Origin: Cryptosporangium arvum DSM 44712
GTDB taxonomy: Bacteria; Actinomycetota; Actinomycetes; Mycobacteriales; Cryptosporangiaceae
Length of the DNA stretch: 64,000 nt
Direction of reading: 5' to 3'
Assembly: GCF_000585375.1 (NCBI RefSeq)
Contig: NZ_KK073874.1
Coordinates: 6,044,894 to 6,108,893 of the forward strand
The position numbers were made by a program, and so were the translations under genes. Of this stretch, positions 10,476 to 52,500 are shown piece by piece; within the stretch, counting starts at the first letter, position 1, and the number at the start of each line of letters is the position of its first letter. Below the pieces are notes generated by a model, which was not told where the DNA came from, ran no database searches, and saw only the letters and a program-made list of their open reading frames with translations.

Positions 10476-11594
10476 GTGACCCTCGACACCCGCGCTCGCC
10501 GCGCCGCCGCCGTCGTCGCCCTGCTGGGCACCGGCGCCCTCGGCGTCGGCACGCTCGCGGCCGCGTCCCCGGCACTCGCCGCGTCGGCGAAACCGGCGGC
10601 GGGAGCCAAGGCGCCGAAGCCGGCCGACGCCGTGGCGACCCCGAAGGCGAGCCCGACCCCGAAAACGAGCCCCACCCAGAAGGCGAGCCCGGCGCCGAAG
10701 GCGAGCGCGAAACCGGGCGCCGCGGCACCGGCGGTGATCACGGTCGCCGGGCTCAGCAGTGCGTTCGGCAGCACGGCCGGCGGCACGAACGTCGTGATCA
10801 ACGGCAAGGGCTTCAGCCGGGTGGATCCGGCGAACAAGTCCGCGGTGCTCTTCGGCAAGGCGCCGGCCACGACGTTCCTGGTGCTCTCGGACACGCAGAT
10901 CGCCGCGACCGTGCCGGCCGGCAGTGGGACGAAGGTGCCGGTCTCGGTCACCGACGGCACCGATACCAGCCCGGACACCGCAGGCGACGACTTCACCTAC
11001 CTGGACCCGATCAGCGTCCAGGTGCCCGACAAGACCGACCTCTCCGCCGCCGGCGGCACGAAGGTCCGGTTGACGCTCGCCGGGACGAACCTGAGCCTCG
11101 GCACCTCGCAGGGCACGTTCGCGCAGAAGAAGATCACCGCGACCGTCGACGGCACCCCCGGAGCCTTGACCTGGGTCGACGCCACCCACGTCGACCTCAC
11201 CGCCCCGGCCGGTACCCCGACGAGGACCGGCGGGAAGGTCTCGGTCGTCGTGGTGAACAACGGCGTGGCCGGTCCCGCCGACACCACGCACGCCCGTTAC
11301 GTCGCGGTCGTGACGAAGCTCAGCGTCGCCACGGGACGGACCACCGGGACGACCGGGGCCGCCGGCAAGCCCGCGCTGACGATCACCGGCGTGGGCCTGA
11401 ACGGCGCGACCGGTTTCTCGTTCGGCTCGGTCAAGGGCACCTGCACCGCGGTCAGTGGCAAGGAAGCCACCACGTGGACCTGCGCGAACGTGCCCGCAGG
11501 CACGGTCGGCGCGGTTCCGGTGCTCCCCACGTTCACCGACGGCCGGTCAGCCGGCGTCACCGCGGGCTCGATCTTCGTCTACACGGATCTCTGA
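10476..11594 (+). CDS. Secreted IPT/TIG-domain protein 1
   Basis: A 372-residue exported protein. It has an N-terminal signal sequence (MTLDTRARR then a hydrophobic core ending SPALA) and an Ala/Pro/Lys-rich linker with repeated PKASPTPKTSPTQKASP-like units at about 30-85. IPT/TIG-like beta-sandwich repeats follow: one opens ITVAGLSSAFGSTAGGTNVV and the last ends in a Cys-pair unit (CTAVSGKEATTWTC) near the C-terminus. TIG domains are immunoglobulin-like and common in surface adhesins and matrix proteins; no enzyme motif is present. GTG 10476 is preceded by ggaggag, which fixes the start. It is the first of three paralogues in a row. Confidence 0.88.
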   Translation: MTLDTRARRAAAVVALLGTGALGVGTLAAASPALAASAKPAAGAKAPKPADAVATPKASPTPKTSPTQKASPAPKASAKPGAAAPAVITVAGLSSAFGSTAGGTNVVINGKGFSRVDPANKSAVLFGKAPATTFLVLSDTQIAATVPAGSGTKVPVSVTDGTDTSPDTAGDDFTYLDPISVQVPDKTDLSAAGGTKVRLTLAGTNLSLGTSQGTFAQKKITATVDGTPGALTWVDATHVDLTAPAGTPTRTGGKVSVVVVNNGVAGPADTTHARYVAVVTKLSVATGRTTGTTGAAGKPALTITGVGLNGATGFSFGSVKGTCTAVSGKEATTWTCANVPAGTVGAVPVLPTFTDGRSAGVTAGSIFVYTDL

Positions 11595-11608: not shown

Positions 11609-11663
11609 GTTCGGCCGAACTCCTGGTTGAGCCCTCAACCCGGGACCGGTTCGGCCGAACTCC
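11609..11663. promoter_or_regulatory. Duplicated 15-base palindrome-containing site and dyad upstream of TIG gene 2
   Basis: GTTCGGCCGAACTCC occurs twice, at 11609-11623 and 11649-11663, exactly 40 bases apart. Its core GTTCGGCCGAAC is a perfect palindrome. Between the copies is a further dyad, GGTTGA-GCCC-TCAACC (11625-11640). The downstream copy overlaps the -10 element of the putative sigma-28-type promoter. The 40-base spacing (about four helical turns) suits a dimeric regulator binding one face. No regulator is assigned. Confidence 0.55.
11635..11660 (+). promoter_or_regulatory. Putative FliA/WhiG-type (sigma-28) promoter of TIG gene 2
   Basis: TCAA at 11635-11638, 15 bases, then GCCGAA at 11654-11659. 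This matches the FliA/WhiG pattern known in enterics and actinomycetes (TAAA/TCAA, N15, GCCGATAA), although the final bases of the -10 (CT) are not ideal. The GTG start of the TIG gene lies 50 bases further on. The same layout precedes the chemoreceptor gene at 28721, and a sigma factor of this family is encoded at 51449-52321. Confidence 0.55.
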
Positions 11664-11708
11664 CGGATGTCTGCATCGAAGAGTCATTAGTTGGATGAAG
11701 GAGTCCAC

Positions 11709-12695
11709 GTGTTACACCCCCGCAGCCGACGTACCCGTCTCGCCGCCGCCCTCGGCGCCACCGTCCTCGCGGGAGGTGGTGTGGTCGCCGTCGCCGGCGT
11801 CGCTCAGGCCGCGACAGCCCCGGCGATCTCGATCAAGTCCCTGAGCACGAGCAAAGGCAGCATCGCCGGCGGCACCGCGGTGCTGATCACCGGTAAGGGC
11901 TTCTCGGCCCTCTCGGAAGCCGACCTGAACAGCGTCAAGTTCGGCTCGGTCGCGGTCAGCTCGTTCACGGTCATCAACGACACCCAGATCGCGACGAAGG
12001 CCCCCGCCCCCAACTCGACGTCCACCGACGACACGGTGAAGGTCCGGGTCACGATCACCGACGGCACCGACACCTCGGCGAACACGACGGCCGACGACTT
12101 CACCTACATCGCGCCGATCACCGCGGTGGCCCCGGCGAACACCGTCCTCTCCGCGGCGGGCGGCACGACCGTGCGGCTCACGCTCACCGGAACCGGCCTC
12201 GACCTCGGCACCGCGTCCACGTTCGGGGCCAAGAAGATCACCGCGACCGTCAACGGCGTCGCCGGCAAGCTGAAGTACGTCGACGCCGACGAGGTCGACC
12301 TCACCGCACCGGCCGGGACACCGACGATCACCAGCGGCAAGGTGACGATCGCCGTGCTGAACGACGGCGTCGCCGGCACCGTGGACGACACCAACGCGAA
12401 GTACGTCGCCGTGGTGACGAAGCTGAGCGTGGCGTCCGGCAAGACCACCGGCACGACCGGCACCGACGCGAAGGCCGCCCTCACCATCACCGGTGCGGGC
12501 CTGACCGGGGCGACCTGGAAGATCGGCAGCACCGACCTCACCTGCGTGGCGGCGACCGGCAAGGCGGCGACCACCTGGACGTGCAAGGACGTTCCGGCCG
12601 GAAGCGCCGGGCCGGTGTCGATCACGCCCAGCTTCAGCTCGGGCGCGACGGCGGGCGTGACCGCCGGCGCGACGTACACCTACGCCGACCTGTAA
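11709..12695 (+). CDS. Secreted IPT/TIG-domain protein 2
   Basis: A 328-residue exported protein paralogous to its two neighbours. The signal peptide (RRTRLAAALGATVLAGGGVV, cleavage after VAQA) leads straight into a TIG repeat opening ISIKSLSTSKGSIAGGTAVL. The middle unit opens LSAAGGTTVRLTLTGTG, and a C-terminal unit has paired Cys (CVAATGKAATTWTC). The long linker of protein 1 is absent. Start: GTG 11709 has aaggag five bases upstream; a TTG at 11691 is in frame but lacks a site. Upstream are the duplicated palindromes and a sigma-28-like promoter; downstream is a strong terminator. Likely role is structural, on or outside the cell or spore surface. Confidence 0.88.
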   Translation: MLHPRSRRTRLAAALGATVLAGGGVVAVAGVAQAATAPAISIKSLSTSKGSIAGGTAVLITGKGFSALSEADLNSVKFGSVAVSSFTVINDTQIATKAPAPNSTSTDDTVKVRVTITDGTDTSANTTADDFTYIAPITAVAPANTVLSAAGGTTVRLTLTGTGLDLGTASTFGAKKITATVNGVAGKLKYVDADEVDLTAPAGTPTITSGKVTIAVLNDGVAGTVDDTNAKYVAVVTKLSVASGKTTGTTGTDAKAALTITGAGLTGATWKIGSTDLTCVAATGKAATTWTCKDVPAGSAGPVSITPSFSSGATAGVTAGATYTYADL

Positions 12696-12705
12696 GCGAC
12701 CCGCG

Positions 12706-12742
12706 GACAGCCGGGGCCATTGAGGCCCCGGCTGTCTGTTTT
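12706..12742 (+). terminator. Intrinsic terminator after TIG gene 2
   Basis: Perfect 13-base stem gacagccggggcc / ggccccggctgtc (12706-12718, 12724-12736) with a 5-base loop, followed by tgtttta. The position 11 bases after the stop codon and the T-run support a rho-independent terminator. Confidence 0.9.
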
Positions 12743-12859
12743 ACAGCGTTTGGTGTTGTTATGAGGCATTGATTGTGTTTGGCTATGCGACAAGCATTCG
12801 ACGGCGTCACATTGCGTCGTCCAGGCCGGGGCCTGTCCCCGCTGTCGCATGGAGAACAA

Positions 12860-13834
12860 ATGCTGGAAAGTCCTCGCGGCCGTACCCGTGCCGCAGCAGT
12901 CTTCTTCGCCGCGTCGGTGGCCCTCGGAGGGGCGGCCGGCGCGACGTCCTTTGCCGGGAGCGCGTTCGCTGCCGCCGGCGACCCGACGATCAAGTCGCTC
13001 AGCGTCTCGAAGGGCAGCGCGGGCGGCGGCACCAACGTCCTCATCACGGGTACCGGCTTCAGCACGGTGGACGAGCAGACCGCGACGAACGTCGTCTTCG
13101 GCAGCACCAACGCGACGAGCTTCATCGTGCTGTCGGACACCCAGATCGCGGCCAAGGCGCCGGCCGGTACCGGCGCGGTGTCGGTGAAGGTCACCAACGG
13201 CACCGGCTCGACCGCCGACACGAACGCCGACAACTTCACCTACATCGACCCGATCACGGTCACGGTGCCCTCGGGAACGCTACTGAGCGCGGCCGGCGGT
13301 ACGACCTTCATCGGCACTCTCACCACCGGTACCCTTACCACCGCCGGTGACATCACCACGAAGAAAATCACCGCGACGGTGAACGGTGCGGCGGCCAAGG
13401 TGGCCTTCTCGGCCGCCGACAAGCTGGCGATCACCGCCCCGGCGGGTACGCCGACCCTCACCAGCGGAAAGGTCACGATCTCGGTCCTGAGCGACGGTGT
13501 CACCGGCACGGTGGACAACACCAACGCGAAGTACGCCGCGGTCGTGACGAAGCTGAGCGTCACCTCCGGCCCGACGGCGGGCACCAACGGCACCAGCGAC
13601 AAGCCCGCGGTCACGATCACCGGGGTCGGCCTCAAGGGCGCGACCGACATCAAGTTCGGGGCCACGACCGCGACCTGCGTCGCCGGTTCCGGCACCAAGG
13701 AAGACACGACCCTGACCTGCACCAACATCCCCGGGGGCTCGGCCGGACCGGTCACCGTGGTCTTCACGCCCGCGGGTGGCGCCACCTTCGGCATCACCTC
13801 CGGCTCGACGTACACCTACACCGACGTCGGCTGA
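12860..13834 (+). CDS. Secreted IPT/TIG-domain protein 3
   Basis: A 324-residue exported paralogue. A signal peptide (MLESPRGRTRAAAVFFAASV, cleavage about AFA-AAG) is followed by TIG repeat PTIKSLSVSKGSAGGGTNVL, a middle unit opening LLSAAGGTTFIGTLTTG, and a C-terminal Cys-pair unit (CVAGSGTKEDTTLTC) ending in YTYTDVG. ATG 12860 has ggaga four bases before the spacer, so it is preferred over an upstream ATG at 12773. The 117 bases between the preceding terminator and this start are AT-richer than surroundings and presumably hold its own promoter. I found no sigma-28-like site there. Confidence 0.88.
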   Translation: MLESPRGRTRAAAVFFAASVALGGAAGATSFAGSAFAAAGDPTIKSLSVSKGSAGGGTNVLITGTGFSTVDEQTATNVVFGSTNATSFIVLSDTQIAAKAPAGTGAVSVKVTNGTGSTADTNADNFTYIDPITVTVPSGTLLSAAGGTTFIGTLTTGTLTTAGDITTKKITATVNGAAAKVAFSAADKLAITAPAGTPTLTSGKVTISVLSDGVTGTVDNTNAKYAAVVTKLSVTSGPTAGTNGTSDKPAVTITGVGLKGATDIKFGATTATCVAGSGTKEDTTLTCTNIPGGSAGPVTVVFTPAGGATFGITSGSTYTYTDVG

Positions 13835-22197: not shown

Positions 22198-23790
22198 TCA
22201 GAACGGTGCGACGGTGAACGCCGAGCCGCTCGTGATGATCGTCTGCCGGGTCGGCGCAGTGTCGTCGTCGTCGACGATGACGACCTGGTACGACCCTTCG
22301 GGCAGGCGAGTCGTGGCCGGGGAGGTCGAGATCGCCGCCGGGTTGGTCGACGCGGAGGCGCCCGCGTTCAGGGTGCAGATCACCTCGGTCTCCGACAGCG
22401 CGACCACGTTGGTGCACTCAGCCGCCTTGGAGTTCGCCGCGCCCGCGTTCGCGCCCACGTCGAAGAGCTTGGTCGGTGTCGTGTTCGTGGGGTCGGCGGT
22501 GCCCTGGACCAGCATGATGTGGTCGTCGCCGGACACTGTGAAGACGAACTGGTCCAGCCCTCCGCCGTAGATGTCCAGGATCGTGCTGCCGGTCGAGGTG
22601 ACCGAGTTCGGCGAGACCGAAATCGCGTCGTAGTACACGTACGGCTTGACCACGTTGCTCTCGGTGTAGGTGACCGAGCCGCCCTCGTTGGACAGGACGA
22701 TGTTCGCGTTACCCGGCGCGTTGGAGGGAACGAGACCGGTGATCGTCTGGTTCGCCGTGCTCACGGTCGGGTTCACCAGCGCCACGCCGCCGATCTTGAC
22801 CGTCGTGGCCGCGGTCAGGTTCGTTCCCCGGATCGTGATCGATCCGCCGCCGAGCGACGGGCCGGAGGTCGAGGTCACCGACGTGATGGTCGGCGCCGCG
22901 TAGACCTTGTACGGAGCCGTCGTCAGCGTGTTGGCCGCAGCGCCGTCGCCGTCATCCCAGACGCAGATGTTGTACTGCGTACCGGCCGGTACCGACTGCA
23001 TCGAGGCCGGCGCCGTGATGACCAGCTTCGAACTGCTCACCACGGTGACCGAGCTGCCCGGCAGGCCGTACGGCGCCGACAGGGTGCCGATGGTCGCGGT
23101 CTGCGCCGTCCCGGTCCCGGACGCGTTGGCCGTCAGCACCGCGGTCGTCGGGCTGGTGACCGAAGCGATCGTCGTCGCGACGTTCGTCGAGTAGACCGTC
23201 GACCCGATGTCGGCGGGGCTGAACGCCGCGGAGGCCGACGAGATGTTCTTGCTGCCGTTGGTCGTGACCAGGTCGGTGACTCGACGGGCGCCGATCAGCA
23301 CGGTCACGCTGCTGGCCGATGCCGTGGTCGCGGTCGAGAGGACGACGGTGGTCGCGTTCGTGACCGTCGAGATCGTGGTCCCCGGCGCAATACCGGTACC
23401 GGCGACCACGCGTCCGACGTCGGAGCTGACGAAGTTCGCCGTGGCCGACACCAGGGAGGTGCTGGTAGCGATGACACCGTCGGAGACCGACCGGCTCACG
23501 GCCGGGATGGCCTGCGCCGTGGTCGGGCAAGCCCCGGTCACGAACTGCACCGCGTTGGCGTCGATCGCGCCGTTCGTGTTGGCGACGTTCAGGGTCGTGC
23601 CCGACCGGAAGGTGTTCGCCGGCGCGTTGATGCTGATGATCGCCCCGGCAGCGCCGCTGGAGGGCGTCGCGGTGGCGGTGACGATGGCCTCGGCCGGGTT
23701 CCCGACGCTCACGAGCGCGGCGGTGGCGACGAGAGCAGTAGTGCCGACCACGGCGGGCCAAAGCGCTCTGCGGGTAGTTTGTCTGCCCAT
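22198..23790 (-). CDS. Large secreted protein with IPT/TIG domain
   Basis: A 530-residue exported protein. The signal peptide is MGRQTTRRALWPAVVGTTAL plus more hydrophobic residues, cleaved near NPAEA. The mature N-terminal half contains two similar beta-rich units of about 55-60 residues: VSATANFVSSDVGRVVAGTG and ISSASAAFSPADIGSTVYST, each followed by a TTVVLST / TTAVLTA strand. This is a repeat seen in phage-tail-like and adhesin proteins. A TIG domain begins PTITSVTSTSGPSLGGGSIT, and a unit with two Cys (KAAECTNVVALSETEVICTL) precedes the C-terminus AFTVAPF. It differs from the three TIG paralogues at 10-14 kb. ATG 23790 has aggagg 12 bases upstream. Likely surface or matrix protein. Confidence 0.85.
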   Translation of the reverse strand: MGRQTTRRALWPAVVGTTALVATAALVSVGNPAEAIVTATATPSSGAAGAIISINAPANTFRSGTTLNVANTNGAIDANAVQFVTGACPTTAQAIPAVSRSVSDGVIATSTSLVSATANFVSSDVGRVVAGTGIAPGTTISTVTNATTVVLSTATTASASSVTVLIGARRVTDLVTTNGSKNISSASAAFSPADIGSTVYSTNVATTIASVTSPTTAVLTANASGTGTAQTATIGTLSAPYGLPGSSVTVVSSSKLVITAPASMQSVPAGTQYNICVWDDGDGAAANTLTTAPYKVYAAPTITSVTSTSGPSLGGGSITIRGTNLTAATTVKIGGVALVNPTVSTANQTITGLVPSNAPGNANIVLSNEGGSVTYTESNVVKPYVYYDAISVSPNSVTSTGSTILDIYGGGLDQFVFTVSGDDHIMLVQGTADPTNTTPTKLFDVGANAGAANSKAAECTNVVALSETEVICTLNAGASASTNPAAISTSPATTRLPEGSYQVVIVDDDDTAPTRQTIITSGSAFTVAPF

Positions 23791-24373
23791 CTGAATGCGT
23801 TTCCTCCTAATACCAGGGGCGATCGCGGCCCCTTCGATTGCCTGCTCAACCGACCGCGGCGCACATCGCACAGCGCGGTAGGGACGCTCGAACCGAAACC
23901 CCGGCGTCGGACGCCGGCCCGCTCGACGAGCCGTGTGACTACGTCCTGCTTAAGTCGCGCAGCACGATGTCCGCCGCGGCCGGTTGTCGACGACACCCGC
24001 TGACCGAACGCGACATGCCCGCCGGTTCGAGCCGGCCCTGGTCTTCCGCGCAGACCGGATCGGCCGTCACGAACGCCTCGTGACAGCACGTCGTCCACCG
24101 TGAGACATGGGTTCTCCGTCGAGGCACGGCACCTGGACCGAATCGGACAGCCGATCCACGTGCGAGAAAAAGCTCATCGATACGCGTTTCGGACAATAAC
24201 GTATGTAAGCCGCACATACGAGAGCCCGATGCGACCGATTCGCACGGATATTGCCCTCTATCGCCCCCGCGAGTCTTGCTCACGGCGCGCCTAGTACCCA
24301 GTAGACGATTTTGGTGCAATCTGGTCATCGATCGGTACCTGGAGGAACGAGTTCGAGCATCGGGAGGAGCCGG
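23791..24373. other. Intergenic region with an AT-rich segment and a small dyad
   Basis: This 583-base stretch separates divergent genes (TIG protein and DUF4232 lipoprotein). The first 330 bases have normal GC and no convincing reading frame. About 24160-24320 is clearly AT-richer than the rest of the window and contains a dyad, CGTATGT-N7-ACATACG (24200-24206 and 24214-24220). It probably holds the promoter and perhaps an operator for the lipoprotein gene at 24374. Confidence 0.55.
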
Positions 24374-28575: not shown

Positions 28576-28655
28576 GGTCACCCTCTCTGGTCGAGCCATG
28601 TGACCCCGGCACCCTATCGCCCGGTGGACACGAGGGTCCCGCGCCCCCGGGACCC

Positions 28656-28682
28656 TCAACCTGGATGGGTAGCCGCCGATAG
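28656..28682 (+). promoter_or_regulatory. FliA/WhiG-type (sigma-28) promoter of the chemoreceptor gene
   Basis: TCAA at 28656-28659, 15 bases, then GCCGATAG at 28675-28682, fitting TAAA/TCAA-N15-GCCGATAA with one mismatch in each element. The expected start site is near 28690 and the chemoreceptor ATG at 28721. Chemoreceptors are classic sigma-28 targets. Confidence 0.75.
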
Positions 28683-28720: not shown

Positions 28721-30313
28721 ATGGCCATTGCCTCGATCCACCGGATGAGCATTCGCAGCAACATGGTCGTCACCGCCGCCGTCGCACTTCTCGCGGCCGC
28801 AGCCATCGGTGGCGTGAGCCTCGTGCAGATGAACCGGATCGCGGACCGGGCCAAAGCGATCCACAGTCAATCGGTCGAGCCGCTGAGGGTCATCGGTGAG
28901 GTACAGCAGACCGTCTGGCACTTCCGGTGGGCCAGTCTCTCCGCCACGACCGCCACCGACGCGGCGAGCGAGGCGAAGTACAAGACGATCACCAGCGAGC
29001 AGCTGGACGCCCTCGACGGCTACATCGCGGACTTCCAGCGGTCGGCCGCATCGCCGGCCGAGAAGGCGGCCTTCGCGAAATTCACCGAGGCCTGGGGCGT
29101 GTACCTGGAGCTACGGAAGCAGTCGACGGCGCTGAAGGCCGCCGGGCGCCTGGCCGAGTGGCAGACGTTCCGGTCCGAGAAGCTGAACCCGCAGACCGCC
29201 GTGGCGATCGAGGCCCTCGACAAAGCCAAGTCGCTGCTGACCGAGGACGCCGCCGCCGCGGCTGCCGACGCGAAGAGCACGGCCGGGAACGCCCGGATCA
29301 TGATCCTCGTGGTGTTGTGCCTCGGCATCGCGCTCACCGCGAGCCTGGCGCTGGCCGCAGCGGGATCCATGGTCCGCCGCGTCCACGCGCTCCGCGATCA
29401 GCTCCGCGCGATCTCCGAGGGTGACCTCGCGCAGCGTCCGGTGGACGAGGCACCGAACGAGATCGGTGAGATGTCCCGCGCGGTGCACCAGGCGGCGGAG
29501 CGGATGCGGACCACGATCCTCACGCTCGCCGAGACCAGCGTCGGGCTCTCCCGCAGCGCGGCGTCGCTGCAGGGCGCCAGCCAGGAGCTCACCGAGAACG
29601 CCGACCGGGCCAGCCAGCAGGTGTCGGCGCTGGACACCGCGGCCGGCGAGGTGACCGGTGGCGTGCAGGCGGTGGCCGGCGGTGCCCAGGAGATGGGCGC
29701 GGCGATCCGCGAGATCTCGGTCAACGCGTCGGACGCCGCCACGGTGGCCAATCAGGCGGTGGAGTCGGCCGCGGCGACCCAGCAGGTCATGGTGCGCCTC
29801 GGCAACTCCTCCAGCGAGATCGGCAGCGTACTCAAGGCCATCACCGCGATCGCCGAGCAGACGAACCTGCTCGCGCTCAACGCAACGATCGAGGCGGCCC
29901 GCGCGGGCGAGAGCGGCAAGGGGTTCGCGGTCGTCGCCGGCGAGGTGAAGGACCTCGCGCAGGAGACCGCGAAGGCGACCGACGAGATCGGCCGCCGGAT
30001 CGACGCGATCCAGCAGGACACCCGCAGCGCCGCCGACGCGATCGCGAGCATCAGCGAGATCATCGGCAAGATCAACGACTACCAGACGACGATCGCCTCG
30101 GCCGTCGAGGAGCAGAGCGCGACGACGGCCGGCATGACCGGCGACCTCGACCGGGTCGCCGGGGGCACCGGGGAGATCAGCGGTCAGCTGAGCCAGGTCG
30201 CCCAGCTCACCCAGGCGACCGAGGGCGCGGCCCGGGCCACCCGGACGGCGGCCGGTGAGCTGGACGTCGCGTCGGAGCAGCTGCGTGCCGCGATCGGCAC
30301 GTTCCGCTACTAG
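28721..30313 (+). CDS. Methyl-accepting chemotaxis protein
   Basis: Transmembrane chemoreceptor of 530 residues. It has a membrane helix at about 15-38, an extracellular four-helix-bundle sensor at about 39-190, a second membrane helix at about 193-213 ([19 protein letters not shown]), HAMP at about 215-268, and a long cytoplasmic signalling coiled coil. The hairpin tip is [20 protein letters not shown] followed by [20 protein letters not shown]. It should control CheA and so flagellar rotation. No che or flagellar gene lies in the window. There is no C-terminal CheR-docking pentapeptide. It interrupts the rhamnose-gene region, has its own sigma-28-type promoter, and ends 9 bases from the convergent rfbA stop. 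Confidence 0.96.
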
Positions 30314-51448: not shown

Positions 51449-52321
51449 TCAGCCGGCCGCGCGCAGCGGCGTGCCCAGCGGTGTGGTGTGCGTGAGGCGG
51501 CTGTGCAGGTTGCCGCGGGCGGCGACGTCGCTGTAGTAGGTGTGGCGGCGCCGGGCGATGCACCCGTCCTGACGCGTGTGGGTCGGCAGCTGCTCGGGGT
51601 CGAGCTGGGAGTTGATGCCGTCGCGGAGCAGGGTGAGTGCTTCGGCGCGGAGTTGGGAGACGCGTGATTCGGTGACGCCGAGTTCGGTGGCGATGACGGC
51701 CATGGGGCGTTCGTCGAGGAAGTAGGACTCGACGACGGTGCGGAGGCGTTCGGGGAGGGCGGAGATGGCTTGGTGGAGGTAGCCGATTTTTTCGCGGTGG
51801 AGGAGGAGTTCTTCGGGGCCTTGGGTGCGGTCGGGGACGAGGTCTTCGGCGGTGCCGGCGGCGAAGCCTTGGAGGGAGAGGACGACGGCGCGTTGGACGT
51901 CGTCGGCGGCGGAGTGCAGTTCGGCGACGGCGACGCCGAGGGTTTCGGCGAGTTCGGTGTCGGTGGGGGTGCGGCCGAGTTGGGCGGTGAGTTCGGCGGT
52001 GGCGGTTTCGATTTTGCGGGCGCGGTGGCGGACGGAGCGGCTGGCCCAGTCGAGGCCGCGGAGTTCGTCGAGGAGGGCGCCGCGGATGCGGACGGTGGCG
52101 AAGGAGCCGAAGGGGGTGCCGCGGGTGGGGTCGAAGGAGCGGGCGGCGGCGGCGAGTGCGGCGAGGCCGGCGGAGGTGAGGTCGTCGCGGTTGACGTGGG
52201 CGGGGACGCGGCCGAGCATTTCGCGGACGAGGTGGCCGACCAGCGGCAAGTGCTCGCGGACGAGCGTGTCCAGCTCACGGTCGGTCAGGCGCGCCGTGGC
52301 GGCGAGAGAAGTCGTGCTCAT
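51449..52321 (-). CDS. FliA/WhiG-family RNA polymerase sigma factor
   Basis: A 290-residue sigma-28-type factor. Region 2 lies at about 20-95 (RDDLTSAGLAALAAAARSFD and FGSFATVRIRGALLDELRGL), region 3 at about 95-145 (RHRARKIETATAELTAQLGR), and region 4 at about 190-240 (ALPERLRTVVESYFLDERPM, HTH ATELGVTESRVSQLRAEAL). A basic tail of about 50 residues with no counterpart in FliA follows. Such factors read flagellar, chemotaxis and sporulation genes. Two promoters of matching type occur in this window. Codons between about 51640 and 52225 use GAA, CAA, CTC and GCC far more than neighbouring genes. ATG 52321 has aggggg upstream. Confidence 0.93.
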   Translation of the reverse strand: MSTTSLAATARLTDRELDTLVREHLPLVGHLVREMLGRVPAHVNRDDLTSAGLAALAAAARSFDPTRGTPFGSFATVRIRGALLDELRGLDWASRSVRHRARKIETATAELTAQLGRTPTDTELAETLGVAVAELHSAADDVQRAVVLSLQGFAAGTAEDLVPDRTQGPEELLLHREKIGYLHQAISALPERLRTVVESYFLDERPMAVIATELGVTESRVSQLRAEALTLLRDGINSQLDPEQLPTHTRQDGCIARRRHTYYSDVAARGNLHSRLTHTTPLGTPLRAAG

Positions 52322-52500
52322 GCGTTCCCCCTGTGTGTTCACCGGTCGGAGCCGTTCGCTCCCGCTCCCGCAGCGGGGCCGTTCCGGCCCGACACCACAG
52401 AGCTTCTGACCGTTCGGGTGCGGGAGCGGGTGCCGCTCAGTTGCACTCCGGTTGCAAGGAGTAGTTCCACGAACACCCTGCGTAAACACCTGAAACCACG
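52322..52500. promoter_or_regulatory. Structured leader of the sigma-factor gene
   Basis: The 180 bases upstream of the sigma start contain a perfect 12-base inverted repeat, cccgctcccgca (52361-52372) and tgcgggagcggg (52419-52430). A smaller dyad built on ttgca (near 52441-52456) lies close by. Both could fold in the mRNA leader or bind regulators. The AT-richer 52441-52500 segment is the likely promoter. Confidence 0.45.

Follow-up and report, generated by a model that had tools for sequence, protein, structure and literature searches.

The TIG locus of Cryptosporangium arvum encodes a secreted all-beta protein

The window analyzed here, a 64-kb stretch (G+C content 72.3%) of the single-contig, 9,195,993-base genome of Cryptosporangium arvum, contains three TIG-domain genes arranged in tandem on the forward strand, TIG1 (10476-11594), TIG2 (11709-12695) and TIG3 (12860-13834). 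TIG2 encodes a 328-residue protein in which a signal peptide (VLHPRSRRTRLAAALGATVLAGGGVVAVAGVAQA), read from the sequence, is followed by IPT/TIG-type beta domains. Two stretches of the protein match the Pfam TIG family (PF01833; E-value 2e-13, 50.5 bits compared to a gathering threshold of 20.9) and its AlphaFold model, with a pLDDT of 84.6, is all-beta past residue 36. The initial annotation of this DNA had described a secreted TIG protein, in agreement with the predicted signal peptide and with TIG being the only Pfam domain found. Inspection of the TIG2 sequence revealed no sortase motif, no C-terminal membrane helix or anchor, no enzyme domain and no feature specific to spores. A structural, binding or matrix role would be the natural reading of this domain composition. 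A fold search with the TIG2 model returned IPT domains of plexin and Met as best matches at a low TM-score of 0.3, indicating an IPT/TIG tandem and nothing further as to a closer identity. Weak matches to cyclodextrin glucanotransferases in a PDB sequence search were uninformative with respect to TIG2 function.

The intergenic regions of the array carry distinct elements. Between TIG1 and TIG2, a strong inverted repeat supported by RNA folding spans positions 11609-11660 and consists of two GTTCGGCCGAAC palindromes located 40 bp apart with GGTTGAG/CTCAACC between them. Downstream of TIG2, sequence and fold indicate an intrinsic terminator on the forward strand (12705-12742; GACAGCCGGGGCC-ATTGA-GGCCCCGGCTGTC followed by TGTTTT). 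With this strong terminator of its own, TIG2 probably represents a single-gene unit. An AT-rich block preceding TIG3 (12742-12859; GTTTGGTGTTGTTATGAG... / GTTTAGTGTTGTTATTAG...) is common to the TIG3 orthologue of a second Cryptosporangium species (genome G001) and probably constitutes a different promoter or operator. Elsewhere in the window, a fourth TIG-containing open reading frame is found on the reverse strand (22198-23871, 557 residues, one TIG domain); no FliA-type site is present upstream of it.

TIG2 is preceded by a putative FliA/WhiG-type promoter

The initial annotation had pointed to the sequence TCAA-N15-GCCGAA before the second TIG gene, and this sequence is found at 11635-11659. 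It forms part of a putative FliA/WhiG-type promoter on the forward strand (11634-11659) with a CTCAA -35 element at 11634-11638, a 15-base spacer and a GCCGAA -10 element at 11654-11659. The -10 element is separated from the GTG start codon of TIG2 (11709) by 49 nt, and a Shine-Dalgarno-like GAAGGAG is located at 11697-11703. The two-part organization of the sigma-28 class, a -10 element of GCCGAT(AA) with a -35 element about 15 nt upstream, is present at this site; its -10 element is one base off GCCGAT and its -35 element reads TCAA instead of TAAA, a substitution found in the majority of sites in the genus. The layout is the same as that of the chemoreceptor promoter to which the site had been likened, CTCAA-N15-GCCGAT at 28655-28680 on the forward strand (score 19.5), located 40 bases upstream of a methyl-accepting chemotaxis protein gene (28721-30313, forward strand; 4HB_MCP_1, HAMP and MCPsignal domains). 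The exact TCAA-N15-GCCGAA sequence occurs once in the window compared to an expectation of 0.06, and at least one match was seen in 6 of 100 shuffles.

Genome-wide, the related pattern TCAA-N15-GCCGAW is weakly enriched (44 matches compared to 29 for a reversed control), as is CTCAR-N15-GCCGAW (54 compared to 30). Such a mild excess is not proof on its own, so the bare TCAA-N15-GCCGAW pattern was dropped as sole criterion and a motif was trained on an independent set of chemoreceptor genes. Using 57 chemoreceptor upstream regions from C. arvum and three congeneric genomes (G001, G002 and G003), we carried out a de novo search of all 4-mer/5-mer dyads with gaps of 12-19 bases. The top dyad, CTCA-N16-GCCGA, was present in 19 of the 57 regions, with the best shuffled dyads reaching 7-8. 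A position weight matrix (PWM) was then built from the 25 chemoreceptor regions containing a site with at most one mismatch to CTCA(A/G)-N15-GCCGA(A/T), TIG genes being excluded from training. The TIG2 site scores 17.3 bits on this matrix, compared to a median of 17.2 for the training sites, at a background p-value of 1.4e-5 per position. The site initially singled out is consequently retained, and its wording is better given as CTCA(G/A)-N15-GCCGA(T/C/A).

The motif marks a set of genes with a clear motility signature. It is found upstream of fliC (CTCAG-N15-GGCGAT), flgN, which is followed by the hook-filament genes flgK and flgL, and cheB, the names flgN and cheB having been assigned from sequence without a family search. 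Perfect matches precede flhA (FHIPEP, E-value 3e-196) and several chemoreceptor genes, as well as sensor kinase genes, one response regulator gene, five GGDEF genes (one also encoding an EAL domain) and a gene for a pilT-like ATPase (T2SSE). Perfect matches before genes typically lie 10-70 bases from the start codon; many of the remaining genome-wide matches are intragenic and presumably due to chance. The association of the motif with flagellar and chemotaxis genes of its own genome (fliC, flgN, flhA, cheB and chemoreceptor genes) is a further mark of the sigma-28 class. The composition of the set suggests that c-di-GMP turnover and type IV pili are probably further targets of the motility sigma factor in this genus.

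The promoter motif is conserved at one TIG gene in all four sequenced species of the genus

Of 399 genomes of the order, only the four belonging to the genus encode TIG2-family proteins, and the family has no NCBIfam match. Three copies lie in tandem in C. arvum; G001 has a tandem pair and one further copy, and G002 and G003 have a single copy each. In all four species, exactly one TIG gene at the locus is preceded by a FliA-type site, scoring 17.3 for C. arvum TIG2, 19.4 for the first G001 copy, 16.9 for G003 and 13.9 for G002. The motif is thus conserved at the orthologous locus, as for sigma-28 class promoters. Distances between site and start codon amount to 49, 81, 42 and 50 nt across the four species and fall within the range seen for chemoreceptor genes. 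Identical bases occupy only 2-7 of the 15 spacer positions in comparisons between species, and the spacers are non-alignable; a divergence this large argues that the shared motif is not merely a result of recent common descent. The combined strength of the four-species comparison is nevertheless overstated because the species share ancestry. No FliA-type site precedes TIG3, the further G001 copy or TIG1, whose best score is -1.7. As the apparent G001 orthologue of TIG1 does carry the motif and the corresponding TIG1 sequence is degenerate, one TIG paralogue seems to have lost the promoter and another to have retained or acquired it. Outside the genus, a single-protein scan of named genomes for the TIG2 family gave nothing, and an alignment-based scan of named genomes yielded distant TIG proteins only. 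The best of these, from Kineosporia (35% identity), has no convincing motif upstream.

The position of the TIG2 site wholly inside the inverted repeat, whose 12-base palindrome occurs only three times in the genome and twice at this promoter, raises the question of whether the match could be a by-product of a terminator or repeat that ends TIG1, with TIG2 being transcribed from another promoter or by read-through. Yet the spacing and bases of the site fit the chemoreceptor PWM exactly, and in the three congeners a TIG gene bears the motif in the absence of the palindrome and of any TIG gene upstream. In addition, only 11 of 16,000 order-1 Markov shuffles of upstream regions reached a threshold score of 13.8, corresponding to a chance of about 0.07% per upstream region. 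We therefore regard a by-product origin as very improbable. The inverted repeat could still serve another role. TIG2 transcription would start downstream of it so that the hairpin would be absent from the TIG2 message, making it more likely that the repeat ends or insulates TIG1, and it probably also represents the TIG1 transcription end. A function of GTTCGGCCGAAC as the operator of a regulator is unsupported beyond the TIG2 locus. The proposal that TIG2 belongs to the motility sigma regulon holds up against the motif itself, its score on the chemoreceptor matrix and its conservation in all four species, and these computations make TIG2 a very probable member of a FliA/WhiG regulon.

A secreted neighbor and two near-identical sigma genes point to a motility regulon

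A second secreted protein of the TIG locus shows the same type of promoter. This small protein of 143 residues (15727-16158, reverse strand) matches Pfam fn3 with an E-value of 1.4e-4, which is below the cut-off, and has orthologues in all three congeners with 67-70% identity. Its FliA-type promoter (16194-16219, reverse strand; CTCAG-N15-GCCGAT) scores 19.4 in C. arvum and likewise in G001 and G002, and G003 contains the classical form TAAA-N15-GCCGAT. TIG2 and the fn3-like protein are both predicted regulon members based on their upstream regions. A PWM scan of the upstream regions of 34 other genes in the window found no FliA-type site.

Flagellin, 19 chemoreceptors and two sigma factors of the FliA/WhiG type are encoded in the genome, making a motile stage likely. 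One sigma gene is located in the window (51449-52489, reverse strand, start codon uncertain), the other in a flagellar cluster elsewhere (genome contig C1:2190878-2191522, reverse strand). The former scores 185-187 bits against TIGR02479, with this subfamily being its best match by a wide margin over SigB/SigF; the sigma genes fall slightly short of the curated FliA_WhiG cut-off (186.6 compared to 189.6 bits). DNA identity between the two genes is 95% and is confined to the coding region, their flanks being unrelated. In C. arvum, G001 and G002, the two copies of one genome share 95, 87 and 91% identity, respectively, compared to 79-87% between species at the same locus. Since copies within a genome are mostly closer than those between species, the comparison suggests that gene conversion keeps both alike. 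The G003 draft gave no FliA/WhiG-class sigma match, possibly due to assembly loss.

The presence of two such sigma genes allows for the element being used by another alternative sigma factor whose -10 element is similar, for example a sporulation sigma factor of the WhiG type with its own timing. WhiG and FliA share specificity (PMC8325347), and three FliA-family factors take part in sporangium formation, dormancy and dehiscence in Actinoplanes (PMC13293333). However, the near-identity of the two sigma copies, combined with the common motif fronting fliC, flgN and flhA, makes a separate specificity unlikely, and we assign this alternative a low probability.

TIG2 may act at the surface of motile spores

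The motif, its identity with the promoters of flagellar and chemotaxis genes, its conservation in the genus and the architecture of TIG2 as a secreted TIG protein were established by computation and are the basis from which we infer sigma factor use in vivo as well as timing, location and function of TIG2. The explanation that best accounts for them, and in which we have considerable confidence, is a functional FliA/WhiG (sigma-28) promoter through which TIG2 is switched together with the motility genes, exported and placed at the surface or matrix of motile spores. One or both of the near-identical FliA-type sigma factors would recognize the element at 11634-11659, and TIG2 would be switched on along with genes for flagella, chemotaxis, type IV pili and c-di-GMP turnover. 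Export via the signal peptide would result in an extracellular chain of Ig-like domains, most likely located at the motile-spore surface or in its matrix. There its role would lie in contact, lubrication or adhesion and would not be enzymatic. As TIG2 has the same type of switch as flagellar and chemotaxis genes, it is probably made during the formation of swimming spores.

An extracellular role specifically at the zoospore stage is favored to a lesser degree. The promoter might be real and TIG2 still be a general surface or exported protein without a role in motile spores, to which the sigma factor adds one expression window. TIG domains are present in many unrelated extracellular proteins, and the absence of a FliA-type site from two paralogues in the array and from the further G001 copy implies that the TIG family need not act only in motile spores. 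Each species nonetheless retains exactly one FliA-type TIG gene at the locus, and the fn3-like secreted neighbor has a FliA-type promoter in all four species, making a general role the less likely reading. The zoospore-stage reading leaves room for the spore-coat, sporangial-matrix or adhesion component proposed in the initial annotation, any of which TIG2 may represent. More tentatively, the TIG proteins and their fn3-like neighbor could form an extracellular layer of the zoospore stage that evolved within the genus, is under flagellar sigma control and is needed to hold, release or disperse motile spores, the sigma promoter having moved between tandem TIG paralogues and always been kept at the locus.

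To our knowledge, the structural proteins described from actinomycete sporangia or zoospores are few, and the development of Cryptosporangium seems little studied. The present analysis links two genus-restricted secreted proteins to a motility sigma factor by conserved promoters and supplies, for the genus, a promoter consensus that can be used in experiments and an incomplete list of regulon members. TIG2 and the fn3-like protein represent concrete, testable candidates for coating or freeing swimming spores.

The predicted regulon resembles known FliA/WhiG systems and includes a possible CmoA analogue

In Actinoplanes, known FliA/WhiG regulons cover flagellar and type IV pilus genes, and in Rubrobacter pili together with DGC/PDE genes (PMC8325347); the flagellar, pilT-like and GGDEF genes bearing the motif in C. 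arvum match this content. C. arvum resembles Actinoplanes missouriensis, in which FliA/WhiG-type sigma factors (FliA1-3) occur together with motile sporangiospores and a single regulon covers both flagella and type IV pili; the open-access literature examined names no TIG protein for that regulon. The Rubrobacter WhiG regulon shares the flagellar-class promoter and the type IV pilus and DGC/PDE genes but is described for pili and not for flagella, and its consensus is TAAA / GCCGATAA whereas the -35 element in C. arvum is mostly CTCAG or CTCAA (PMC8325347). SspA of the sporangium-former A. missouriensis has a structural function at the spore surface, as is proposed for TIG2. In contrast to what is predicted for TIG2, it is intrinsically disordered, anchored to the cell wall and up-regulated in fliA mutants, and does not depend on fliA (PMC13293333).

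The closest parallel is CmoA of Paenibacillus sp. NAIST15-1, a secreted tandem IPT/TIG protein that is co-induced with flagellar genes and was suggested by its authors to be a flagellar-regulon member. CmoA surrounds moving cells and is required for movement on hard agar (PMC5072692). Both proteins are secreted, contain TIG repeats and are tied to flagellar genes, in the case of TIG2 by promoter prediction, and by analogy TIG2 may work similarly. CmoA is a Firmicute protein of 1,064 residues that contains a vWFA domain besides eight TIG domains and whose gene is probably co-transcribed with fliD/fliS (PMC5072692), whereas TIG2 has 328 residues and its own promoter, and TIG was the only domain found by Pfam, with no vWFA domain, placing TIG2 outside the CmoA family. 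The suggestion that a component of this kind had not been described before therefore applies to the TIG2 family, which is genus-restricted and lacks an NCBIfam match, and not to the type of protein, already known from CmoA (PMC5072692). TIG2 is a new genus-specific addition to an already known type of regulon.
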